Assembly (NCBI RefSeq): GCF_024494595.1
Contig: NZ_JANHDI010000001.1
Location: forward strand, 62,001-126,000
Direction of reading: 5' to 3'
DNA: 64,000 nt
From: Halobellus rarus
GTDB lineage: Archaea; Halobacteriota; Halobacteria; Halobacteriales; Haloferacaceae
In this document: piece after piece, positions 22,393-25,608 of the stretch
How positions within the stretch are numbered: the stretch's first letter is position 1
Layout of the letters: the number at the start of each line of letters is the position of its first letter
The notes under the pieces: generated by a model
The model's input: the letters and a program-made list of their open reading frames with translations, nothing else
Told to the model about the DNA's origin: nothing
Database searches by the model: none
Program-made: the position numbers and the translations under genes

Positions 22393-22878
22393 GTGACGGT
22401 CTACGAGAGCGATCTCCCGGGCGTCGGCAAGAAACACGAGATCGACCTGCCGGACGGGTCACAGCTCGTCGTCGTGACCCACAACGAGGGGCGCAGGGAG
22501 GTCTTCCTGCGGGCAGATTCCGACAGCGACTCCGAAAAGCTGTTCGAGTTGCCCGACCGCCTGGCCCGACAGGTCGGGACGATCTTGGAGGGCGCGTACT
22601 TCCAGCCAGTCAAGTCCCAGGACATCGAGACGCTGCTGGGTGGCGACACGCTCTTGGAGTGGGTCGACGTCGGAGACGACTCCCCGATCGCCGGACGGAG
22701 CCTCGGTGAGTCCGACCTGCGTGCAGAGACCGGCGCGTCCGTCGTCGCGATCGAACGGGGCGAAGAGGTGATCCCCTCGCCGGGCGGGGAGACGACGATC
22801 CAGGAGGGTGACCGGCTCGTCGTCGTCGGCACGCGAGCCGACTGCGACGCGTTCAAATCGCGCGTGGACGGGGCATAA
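22393..22878 (+). CDS. TrkA-C-type regulatory subunit of K+/H+ antiporter (KhtT-like)
   Basis: 161 residues. The N-terminal half starts TVYESDLPGVGKKHEIDL, matching KhtT-like regulatory proteins. The C-terminal half is a TrkA-C (RCK-C) domain, LLEWVDVGDDSPIAGRSLGESDL... GETTIQEGDRLVVVGTR. KhtT gates a CPA2 antiporter in response to pH or c-di-AMP in bacteria. The GTG at 22393 is preferred to a TTG upstream because the family starts there. Its stop overlaps the next ATG (TAATG), so regulator and transporter are coupled. Confidence 0.88.
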   Translation: MTVYESDLPGVGKKHEIDLPDGSQLVVVTHNEGRREVFLRADSDSDSEKLFELPDRLARQVGTILEGAYFQPVKSQDIETLLGGDTLLEWVDVGDDSPIAGRSLGESDLRAETGASVVAIERGEEVIPSPGGETTIQEGDRLVVVGTRADCDAFKSRVDGA

Positions 22879-24077
22879 TGGCGGCCGGGCTGCTCGAACT
22901 CGGGCAGGTCTTCGCGGTGCTCGCGCTCGCCGGAGCCGTGGCGCTGCGGGTCGGACTCTCGGTGATCCCGCTGTACGTCGTCAGCGGGATGCTCGCGGGC
23001 CCGTTCGTCGCCGGGCGGACGGGCGCTCCGTACGTCCCGGACGGGGAGCTACTCACCGTGCTCGCGGAGGTCGGAATCGTGCTCCTCCTCTTCTTTCTGG
23101 GACTCGAGTTCAGCCTCGATCGCCTGCTGGCGGCGCGCTCGCGGATCACCCGCGCGGGCGTCGTCGACGTCGCGATCAACCTGCCGCTCGGCATCGCGAT
23201 CGGCCTCGCGCTCGGCTGGTCGGTCGTCGAGGCGCTGCTGCTGGGCGGAATCGTCTACATCTCGTCGTCGGCGATCATCACGAAGACGCTGATCGATCTC
23301 GGGTGGATCGCCAACGACGAGGCCGAGCCGATCCTCGGGACGCTCGTCTTCGAGGACCTCTTCATCGCCGTCTATCTGGCGGTCGTCACCTCGCTCGTCC
23401 TCGGCGGGGCCGACGCCGGGCTGAACGGCCTCGGGCGATCGCTGGCGGTCGCCTTCGGCTTCTTGGGGGCGCTGTTTCTCGCCGTTCAGTACGGGACCGA
23501 GTTCTTTTCACGCGTCCTCGACGTCTCCGACACGGAGTCGTTCGTCCTCCGGATCCTGGGCGTCGTCGTTCCGATCGCGGGCGCCGCACTGACACTGGGT
23601 GTGAGCGAGGCCGTCGCGGCGTTCTTCGTCGGGATGGGCTTTTCGACCAGCGGACACCGCGAACGGATCGAACGGCTGTTGACGCCCGTCCGGGACGTCT
23701 TCGCCGCCGTGTTCTTCTTCTGGATCGGCGTCGGGACCGACCCGCGGCTGCTCGTCGGCGTCGCCGTCCCGCTCGTGGCCGCCGTGGCTCTGACCACCCC
23801 CGCGAAACTGATTTCGGGCTATCTGGGCGGACGCGTCTACGACCTCTCGGAGGGTCGGTCGCTCCGCGTCGGTCTCGGGCTGGTGCCGCGGGGAGAGTTC
23901 TCGCTCGTCATCGCCGCGCTCGCGGCCGGCGGATCGACGACGGTGATGCAGGACGTCATCCCCGCGCTCGCGGTCGGGTACGTCCTCGTGATGAGTGTGC
24001 TCGGTACGGTGTTGATGCAGCGCTCGGACGCCGTCGAGGGTCTGATCGACCGGGTGCGCCCGGGCGCACCGACGTGA
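22878..24077 (+). CDS. CPA2-family cation/proton antiporter (KhtU/KefB-like)
   Basis: A 399-residue integral membrane protein with about twelve hydrophobic segments, typical of monovalent cation:proton antiporter-2. Landmarks are LYVVSGMLAGPFVAGR, VGIVLLLFFLGLEFSLDRL, YISSSAIITKTLIDLG and GTLVFEDLFIAVYLAV, with the acidic pair needed for ion exchange. With the upstream KhtT-like subunit it would export K+ or Na+ against protons. A third gene (TrkA-N) is not fused. There is potential c-di-AMP control, since a cyclase-like gene is at 3276, but no direct evidence. Confidence 0.9.
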   Translation: MAAGLLELGQVFAVLALAGAVALRVGLSVIPLYVVSGMLAGPFVAGRTGAPYVPDGELLTVLAEVGIVLLLFFLGLEFSLDRLLAARSRITRAGVVDVAINLPLGIAIGLALGWSVVEALLLGGIVYISSSAIITKTLIDLGWIANDEAEPILGTLVFEDLFIAVYLAVVTSLVLGGADAGLNGLGRSLAVAFGFLGALFLAVQYGTEFFSRVLDVSDTESFVLRILGVVVPIAGAALTLGVSEAVAAFFVGMGFSTSGHRERIERLLTPVRDVFAAVFFFWIGVGTDPRLLVGVAVPLVAAVALTTPAKLISGYLGGRVYDLSEGRSLRVGLGLVPRGEFSLVIAALAAGGSTTVMQDVIPALAVGYVLVMSVLGTVLMQRSDAVEGLIDRVRPGAPT

Positions 24078-24085
24078 TCGAATCT

Positions 24086-24100
24086 CGAAAGCGTTTTGTG
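24086..24100 (+). promoter_or_regulatory. Promoter-like element before the Arg-rich mini-ORF
   Basis: The sequence cgaaagcgttttgtg has the haloarchaeal BRE (cgaaa) and T-rich TATA layout. It lies about 29 nt before the ATG at 24125, consistent with a leaderless transcript starting at that codon. Confidence 0.45.
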
Positions 24101-24124
24101 CGCCGACTCAGTTCTACACACCCA

Positions 24125-24256
24125 ATGACGCGGCTCTCTCCGACACGCGTCCGCGCCCCCCAGAGAGCCGCGACTTCGGCCGTCTCGGCCCGTACGACCA
24201 CGTTCTCCGCCGAGACGACCGTCGCCGCGCGCCGACCGCGACGACGGGCCGCTTAG
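24125..24256 (+). CDS. Arg-rich 43-residue leader-like mini-ORF before argG
   Basis: ATG to TAG encodes 43 residues starting MTRLSPTRVRAPQRAATS and ending VAARRPRRRAA. Ten residues are Arg, one is Glu and none is Asp, the reverse of normal haloarchaeal proteins. A promoter-like element sits 29 nt upstream, and the argG promoter begins about 100 nt downstream. An arginine-rich reading frame directly ahead of arginine biosynthesis genes is suggestive of a sensor peptide, but attenuation of this kind is not established in archaea. It may also be chance in GC-rich DNA. Confidence 0.4.
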   Translation: MTRLSPTRVRAPQRAATSAVSARTTTFSAETTVAARRPRRRAA

Positions 24257-24345
24257 GCCCACCACTACCTCACTTTCACGTTGCATCGAATCAACCCACA
24301 AGCGATTAGCGTCTCTATAGGCATCTCTGCGCTTTAATTTCTAAA

Positions 24346-24369
24346 ATTTAAACCGTGTAATTTATACGG
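24346..24369 (+). promoter_or_regulatory. argG promoter
   Basis: An AT-rich block (24330-24370) ends in aatttatacgg, whose TATA core is centred about 30 nt before the argG ATG. A short ggag lies 5 nt before the ATG, but the spacing to the TATA box implies a leaderless or nearly leaderless mRNA. Confidence 0.6.
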
Positions 24370-24393: not shown

Positions 24394-25608
24394 ATGACAA
24401 GCGTGGCACTCGCGTTCTCGGGCGGCCTCGACACCACAGTCTGCGTCTCGCTCCTGCAGGAGGAGTACGGGTACGACGAAGTCGTCGGCGTGACCGTCGA
24501 CGTGGGCCAGCCCGAGTCCGAGTTCGAGGAGGCACAGGAGACCGCCGACGCGCACGGCCTCGACCTGCACGTCGTCGACGCGAAAGCGGAGTTCGCAGAC
24601 CTCTGTTTCGACTCCGTCCGCGCGAACGCGACCTACCAGGGCTACCCGCTCGGCACGGCGCTGGCCCGTCCGGTGATCGCGAACGCGATTCTCGAAGTGG
24701 CCGAAGAAGAGGGCTGCGACGCGCTCGCACACGGCTGCACCGGCAAGGGCAACGACCAGCTCCGTTTCGAGGTCGTCTGGCGCGCCTCCGACCTCGACGT
24801 GATCGCGCCCGTCCGCGAACTGGAACTCACCCGCGAGTGGGAACAACAGTACGCCGAGGAGCACGATCTTCCAGTTCAGTCGGGCAACTCCGGCGTCTGG
24901 TCGATCGACACGAACCTCTGGAGCCGTTCCGTCGAGGGCGGACAGCTGGAAGACCCCAACTACGTGCCTCCGGAGGACATCTACGAGTGGACCGACGACC
25001 CCGCCAACGCCACCGAGACCGAGTTGGTCGAGATCACCTTCGAGGACGGCTATCCCGTCGCGCTCGACGGTGAGGACCTCTCTCCCTCCGAACTGATCGA
25101 GGCGCTGAACGAGCAAGCCGGAAAGCACGGCGTCGGCCGCACGGATATGATGGAAGACCGGATGCTCGGGCTGAAGGTCCGCGAGAACTACGAGCACCCG
25201 GCGGCGACGACCCTTCTGACCGCCCACGAGGCCCTCGAGCAGCTCGTCCTCACGAAGGACGAGCGCGACTTCAAGCGCTCGATCGACGCCGAGTGGGCCC
25301 AGAAGGGCTACGAGGGCCTCGTCGACCACCCGCTCGTCGACGCGCTCGAAGGGTTCATCGACGAGACGCAGTCCCGCGTCACCGGCACGGTGACGATCAA
25401 GTTCCAGGGCGGACAGGCCCGTCCGGTCGCCCGCGACTCGGAGTACGCCGCCTACTCCGAGGACGCCGCCTCGTTCAACACCTCCGGCGTCGGCGACATC
25501 ACCCAGCAGGACGCGACGGGCGTCGCGAAGTACCACGGCTTCCAGTCGCGCCTCGCGAACGCCGCCATCGACGCCGCCGAGGACGACGACGAAGGCGACT
25601 GGGAGTAG
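24394..25608 (+). CDS. argG: Argininosuccinate synthase
   Basis: 404 residues. Joins citrulline and aspartate with ATP to argininosuccinate, the penultimate step to arginine. The N-type ATP pyrophosphatase loop AFSGGLDTTVCVSLLQEE is at residues 6-23. Other family segments are AHGCTGKGNDQLRFEV, GVWSIDTNLWSRSVEGG and EDRMLGLKVRENYEHPAAT. ATG follows an AT-rich promoter. First gene of the arginine cluster; argH starts 3 nt after its stop. Confidence 0.97.
   Translation: MTSVALAFSGGLDTTVCVSLLQEEYGYDEVVGVTVDVGQPESEFEEAQETADAHGLDLHVVDAKAEFADLCFDSVRANATYQGYPLGTALARPVIANAILEVAEEEGCDALAHGCTGKGNDQLRFEVVWRASDLDVIAPVRELELTREWEQQYAEEHDLPVQSGNSGVWSIDTNLWSRSVEGGQLEDPNYVPPEDIYEWTDDPANATETELVEITFEDGYPVALDGEDLSPSELIEALNEQAGKHGVGRTDMMEDRMLGLKVRENYEHPAATTLLTAHEALEQLVLTKDERDFKRSIDAEWAQKGYEGLVDHPLVDALEGFIDETQSRVTGTVTIKFQGGQARPVARDSEYAAYSEDAASFNTSGVGDITQQDATGVAKYHGFQSRLANAAIDAAEDDDEGDWE

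Follow-up and report, generated by a model that had tools for sequence, protein, structure and literature searches.

The region upstream of argG in Halobellus rarus

The window, the whole stretch of 64,000 nucleotides that was analysed, comes from Halobellus rarus and carries the gene for argininosuccinate synthase, argG, preceded by a short arginine-rich open reading frame (ORF). ArgG of the window is 93-98% identical to that of five Halobellus strains and 88% identical to that of Halobellus salinus, and the gene is followed by argH, a gene for a LysW-type carrier and an argX/lysX-type gene. The features of the region are listed below in order of position.

24086..24099, + strand: predicted leader promoter, BRE CGAAAG and TATA-like TTTTGT (-31 to -26 from the leader ATG)
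24125..24256, + strand: leader ORF, 43 codons and TAG, with a predicted leaderless start
24230..24247, + strand: terminal Arg codon cluster CGC CGA CCG CGA CGA CGG (RRPRRR)
24246..24260, + strand: GC hairpin GGGCC-gctta-GGCCC, with the TAG stop (24254-24256) reaching from the loop into the first base of the 3' arm
24261..24279, + strand: G-free, A/C/T-rich tail directly after the hairpin, with TTTC at 24274-24277
24353..24369, + strand: predicted argG proximal promoter, the near-palindrome CCGTGTAATTTATACGG with a TATA box TTTATA at 24361-24366, nearly invariant in 11 Halobellus loci
24394..25608, + strand: argG, argininosuccinate synthase, the gene proposed to be regulated (Pfam PF00764 and PF20979)

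The leader ORF at 24125-24256 translates to MTRLSPTRVRAPQRAATSAVSARTTTFSAETTVAARRPRRRAA* (43 amino acids), a peptide with ten Arg, one Glu and no Asp in which five of the last eight residues are Arg. This agrees exactly with a preliminary description of the same DNA, which also gave the distance from the end of the ORF to argG correctly as 137 nt, the argG ATG being at 24394. Searches with Rfam covariance models gave a miRNA model as the only match to the region, scoring 19 bits where the cut-off is 110, and no T-box or other regulatory RNA. A scan for sigma-70 promoters and terminators was set aside as uninformative for archaea.

Spurious Arg-rich frames are abundant here, and a chance out-of-frame reading of GC-rich DNA is one explanation of such an ORF. 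The leader frame is also open far upstream, as part of an open frame of 482 amino acids at 22808-24256, so that openness by itself is weak evidence in this single sequence and the evidence has to be supplied by relatives.

Conservation of the leader among Halobacteria

Eighty Halobacteria argG loci were fetched by ArgG similarity and 79 of them had enough upstream sequence; these loci are not independent because several genera were sampled repeatedly. An ORF with an Arg cluster precedes argG in all 79 readable loci, and the cluster is nearly always at the end of the ORF. Most of these ORFs were detected by script and some (e.g. L014, L015, L018, L048, L051 and L075) were placed by reading the sequence. 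In four loci of Halohasta/Halonotius type (L026, L028, L051 and L075) the Arg cluster and the hairpin lie within a longer ORF and not at its end. The leaders vary in length from 21 to 87 codons, with 78-155 nt between the stop codon and argG. The leader promoter, ATG, terminal Arg codons, stop codon and argG promoter are all kept in the 11 aligned Halobellus loci, and the leader stays with argG in several Halobellus genomes in which inserted sequence separates the upstream antiporter match from the argG match. The preliminary description had proposed a comparison of argG upstream regions, with a missing ORF or a frame broken in close strains as grounds for rejection. Neither occurs among the Halobacteria loci read; the ORF, its frame and the terminal Arg codons are kept in every one. 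No leader was found before argG at 23 loci from other classes of the phylum, and all seven Halobacteria genomes of that cross-class set carry it.

Two controls bear on chance. Strict script criteria, i.e. an ATG, an AT-rich box at promoter distance, an Arg cluster and a position 55-175 nt before the gene, select 64 of the 80 argG loci compared with 2 of 233 control genes (400 kb of stretches from the same genome). In a frame-blind test the ATG was picked solely by its distance from the TATA-like box, which gives a chance of one third that it is in frame. In 69 of 70 loci this ATG shares its frame with the Arg codons at the hairpin base, with no intervening stop codon, which points to translation of the leader; the exception, L015, is compatible with a GTG start. 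Together with the class-wide conservation of frame and Arg codons, the low control rate and the frame-blind result make a chance reading scarcely conceivable.

A covariance model comprising the Arg codons, hairpin and tail, which was built on one loop length and misses other stem types, has matches in 54 of 97 genomes, with one site in nearly every one. All 40 sites that were taken as loci in the class and genus searches sit just before argG. The predicted leader element is thus essentially single-copy and argG-specific.

The end of the leader and its body are conserved to different degrees. For the body, pN/pS is 1.06 in Halobellus, 1.18 in Natrinema, 0.84 in Halorussus and 0.25 in Haloferax; judged by these values, the leader body is drifting freely in three of the four genus sets and is under constraint in Haloferax only. 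The conserved amino acid sequence and purifying selection expected of a functional small protein were not found, as pN/pS is near 1 in three of the four sets, nor does the peptide have a Pfam match. A stand-alone Arg-rich protein acting in trans, e.g. by binding nucleic acids, would account for an ORF with its own promoter next to a gene that has a separate promoter in 51 loci, but it would hardly be expected to be unconserved both in sequence and in length, to match no Pfam family and to remain beside argG as one element per genome. This explanation is very improbable.

Across loci, 37% of the 12 terminal residues are Arg, compared with 14% earlier in the leader. The clusters differ between loci (RRPRRR, RRFRPG and RRLRRLPRAG, for example), with Arg kept while the codons vary. 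CGA constitutes 69% of the Arg codons in the terminal part of the leader, 3% in argG and 13% genome-wide (window's species). In theory, attenuator leaders are expected to use codons read by the isoacceptor that is most sensitive to starvation, and the regulated genes to avoid such codons. Part of the reason for the CGA run may lie in a constraint on the RNA and not in codon choice.

Promoters, hairpin and a model for control of argG

The promoter-like element that the preliminary description had placed at leaderless spacing is CGAAAGCGTTTTGT (24086-24099), with its TATA-like box at -31 from the leader ATG. It is kept as CGAAAACGTTTAGTG in the Halobellus alignment, and a TTWW box starting 29-33 nt before the leader ATG is present in 68 of 79 Halobacteria loci. 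A second TATA box, belonging to argG itself and about 30 nt before its ATG, is present in 51 loci, Halobellus included, and absent in 28, where the sequence at this position is C/A-rich. In these 28 loci the leader promoter is the sole visible one, and the leader would therefore be part of the argG message. In the other 51 the leader cannot govern every argG transcript. The putative leader in Halobellus-type loci can thus affect only the argG transcription that comes from the upstream promoter, and for the window's species this restricts the model more than anything else.

The conserved promoter of argG in the window's species went unmentioned in the preliminary description. The near-palindrome CCGTGTAATTTATACGG lies over the argG TATA box and is a possible operator for a DNA-binding regulator. 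In addition, CTATAGGCAT at 24315-24324, before the argG promoter, is shared with Haloferax and belongs to the palindrome GCCTATAGGC.

In 76 of 79 loci, compared with 11% of shuffled sequences, the last Arg codons mark the start of a GC stem with five or more pairs, and the hairpin surrounds the stop codon in most loci. Its sequence varies with compensatory changes (GGGCC/GGCCC, GGCCC/GGGCC, GGGTC/GACCC, GGGGC/GCCCC and CGGGC/GCCCG), and in 7 of the 27 sequences of a fixed-length subset both partners of the central pair have switched, turning G-C into C-G. Alignment of 53 tails with MAFFT misaligned the hairpins and hairpin-anchored sequences were used instead. The hairpin occupies different codon phases in different loci. 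From the geometry, the position of a ribosome could decide whether the hairpin folds.

These nucleotide features raise the alternative that a conserved RNA or DNA element, namely the hairpin with CGACGAC at its base, is bound by a protein or ligand, and that the reading frame is incidental. Both CGACGAC and the hairpin are strongly conserved as nucleotides, and the body shows little coding constraint in three genus sets (pN/pS 1.06, 1.18 and 0.84). An incidental frame does not explain why, in 69 of 70 loci, the ATG at TATA spacing reads into the Arg codons without meeting a stop, why Arg is kept despite varying codons, differing clusters and differing codon phases of the hairpin, or why the Haloferax bodies have a pN/pS of 0.25. 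Nor does it explain why the leaders before ilvB, pheS and trpS, described below, each bear their own cognate amino acids. A bound element with an incidental frame is accordingly improbable.

The hairpin is followed by sequence poor in G (2% in the first 10 nt across loci). Between hairpin and argG, TTTTC is found in 19 of 49 loci with an argG TATA box, where 6.2 are expected, and TTTC in 23 of 28 loci without this box, where 12.5 are expected. Intergenic terminators of Haloferax volcanii are of this type, a T-run with a C after it, and in the same species 59% of transcripts were terminated in vivo by a hairpin element (PMC7237163). The argG loci do not have a bacterial-type terminator with a U-tract immediately after the hairpin; the tail is A/C/T-rich, and the T-runs lie further downstream and are absent in some loci. 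A competing antiterminator or a mutually exclusive pair of helices common to the class was not found in the argG loci. One candidate, the pairing of the CGA run with a downstream TCGTC seen in some folds, was dropped, since complements of this sort occur widely in the GC-rich DNA of haloarchaea and covariation was not demonstrable.

The promoter, the ATG at leaderless distance, the drifting body, the terminal and mostly CGA Arg cluster, the GC hairpin, the G-poor tail and the gene specificity are all established from the sequences. That some kind of ribosome-sensing leader acts in cis before argG is very probable on these grounds. It is also probable, with somewhat less confidence, that the ORF is a cis-acting leader peptide which senses arginyl-tRNA and controls argG in the manner of a bacterial amino-acid attenuator. 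A sensor of tRNA charging would be consistent with the rarity of CGA, the position of the hairpin at the Arg codons and the lack of an argG promoter in 28 loci. This reading had been raised as an analogy in the preliminary description and is supported further by the class-wide conservation and by cognate leaders elsewhere.

In the model, a leaderless RNA would start at the leader ATG and be translated during its synthesis. When arginine is ample, the ribosome would clear the CGA codons, terminate and depart, leaving the hairpin and the pyrimidine-rich tail exposed. The RNA would then end before argG, at the hairpin or at the T-runs beyond it, perhaps with the participation of FttA/aCPSF1. When Arg-tRNA is scarce, and especially the tRNA that reads CGA, the ribosome would stall on the Arg codons and cover the 5' arm of the hairpin, and transcription would run into argG. 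Since argG avoids CGA (3%), it would still be translatable under the shortage. In Halobellus-like lineages the second promoter would yield a basal leaderless argG transcript. We infer the step of transcription termination in this model; exclusion of FttA by a coupled ribosome is put forward as a hypothesis in a paper on the FttA structure (PMC11616081).

The leader peptide might instead act on argG translation or RNA stability, through refolding or decay near the argG start caused by a stalled ribosome and not through termination. Where argG lacks a TATA box of its own (28 loci), it would have a long 5' UTR, which is C/A-rich and poor in G just before the ATG, and in one group of these loci a possible pseudoknot before argG has paired changes by eye. 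In the other 51 loci, on the other hand, an argG transcript from the gene's own promoter would be leaderless and would have no upstream sequence that could refold, and the enrichment between hairpin and argG of T-run-plus-C motifs, the Haloferax type of intergenic terminator (PMC7237163), also speaks against this alternative. Action on translation or stability is consequently rather unlikely. The possible pseudoknot is of H type (CCGCCC..GTCGGGT..GGGCGG..ACCCGAC) and lies just before argG in L037, L040, L062, L071, L072, L073 and L081, all without an argG TATA box; the paired changes are in L071 and L081 and were read by eye because MAFFT misaligned the region.

Published 5'-end mapping bears on how strongly the leader is transcribed. 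In Haloferax the leader ATG is about 215 nt upstream of argG, and the list of uORFs in 5' UTRs of 150-250 nt in H. volcanii omits argG (HVO_0049) (PMC4983044). This omission counts against strong transcription of the argG leader in that species under the conditions used.

Leaders before other genes and comparison with known systems

Leaders with clusters of cognate amino acids are also found before ilvB, pheS and a paralogue of trpS, so the argG case is not an isolated one. The ilvB leaders end in Ile/Val clusters, such as SLIIVGV, or QIIVGAL in the window's genome. Their layout of ATT ATT GTA, GGGG, a loop bearing the stop codon, CCCC and a G-poor tail is the argG design. This pattern is found exactly once per genome in 56 of 97 Halobacteria genomes and not at all when the pattern is read backwards, and all 30 of the sites checked share the strand of ilvB and precede it by 175-316 nt. 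The copy in the window's genome (C2:115441-115462, locus L287) carries the codons ATC ATT GTA, and the adjoining GGGG..CCCC hairpin surrounds the stop codon. All 30 loci checked (L320-L349) also have a leuA-like gene upstream of the ilvB leader and in the same orientation.

The pheS leaders carry Phe clusters, for example GFGFFFGA and GFGFEFGFR, and GSGFFFGIE in the window's genome (L213 on C6; the other loci are L216-L221, L225, L226, L228 and L230). The region after their stop codon does not resemble the argG and ilvB design, being G-rich with a TGA stop. Trp clusters of PWRWW type precede the trpS paralogue at two loci in Haloferacaceae genomes. The clusters are TPWRWRE in L252 and PWRWWS in L253, and the H. 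volcanii uORF published for HVO_A0127 is possibly the counterpart of these leaders. Such clusters of Phe, Trp or Ile/Leu/Val were found in none of 237 control genes, and no leaders of the same kind were found before trpC or hisG in Haloferacaceae by the criteria applied.

On balance these leaders point to a family of attenuators across Halobacteria (Arg at argG, Ile/Val at ilvB, Phe at pheS and Trp at the trpS paralogue) that would consist of leaderless ORFs. At argG and ilvB, a GC hairpin around the stop codon and adjoining the cognate codons, followed by a G-poor tail, would direct an archaeal and possibly FttA-dependent termination. The preliminary description had stated that a leader-peptide mechanism is not established in archaea, and no description of amino-acid leader peptides or attenuation in archaea was found in the literature searched, which left most subscription journals out of reach.

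The closest archaeal observations are uORFs in the long leaders of pheS and a trp-tRNA ligase in H. volcanii, found by 5'-end mapping (dRNA-seq) and neither of them marked with a separate start site (PMC4983044). Genes of these kinds are preceded by Phe and Trp clusters in the relatives. In contrast to the leaders described here, argG and ilvB are unlisted in that uORF table, and the text stresses low isoelectric points and not clusters of amino acids (PMC4983044).

The fungal arginine attenuator peptide, encoded by the uORF of CPA1/arg-2, is likewise an arginine-related uORF before an arginine gene. It has a conserved nascent-chain sequence and stalls the ribosome at high arginine, whereas the argG leader conserves only Arg codons. 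TnaC, with termination linked to the stop codon and Rho, is similar in that a ribosome near the leader stop would set the access of a termination factor to the sequence downstream, and the argG tail is G-poor and pyrimidine-rich. However, TnaC senses free tryptophan by way of the nascent chain and has a conserved peptide, while the body of the argG leader is unconserved and its signal would be the codon run. To our knowledge, archaea are without Rho.

In bacteria, leader peptides that act through ribosome-mediated attenuation are a textbook case of gene control. The systems trpL, hisL, ilvL, pheM/pheST and leuL share with the haloarchaeal loci a short ORF before a cognate biosynthesis or aminoacyl-tRNA synthetase gene, a run of cognate codons, an adjoining hairpin and rare leader codons that are nearly missing from the regulated gene. 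They differ in that the haloarchaeal ORF is predicted to be leaderless, without a ribosome-binding site and in an archaeal host, and in that about two thirds of the argG loci have a second promoter before the gene. Where the bacterial attenuators have competing helices and a hairpin-plus-U-tract terminator, the haloarchaeal loci have a single small hairpin, which in most cases encloses the stop, and a tail poor in G. The proposed argG leader is thus one that works like a bacterial attenuator yet departs from it in one defining character, the hairpin-plus-U-tract terminator with a competing helix.

Archaea terminate transcription with machinery that differs from that of bacteria, and the way in which they couple transcription and translation is a subject of current work. 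In haloarchaea, which are amenable to genetics, a class-wide element would allow coupling and conditional termination to be tested directly with simple reporters. If the model is true, codon-sensing attenuation has evolved in archaea separately from the bacterial systems, and the two have converged on the same logic.
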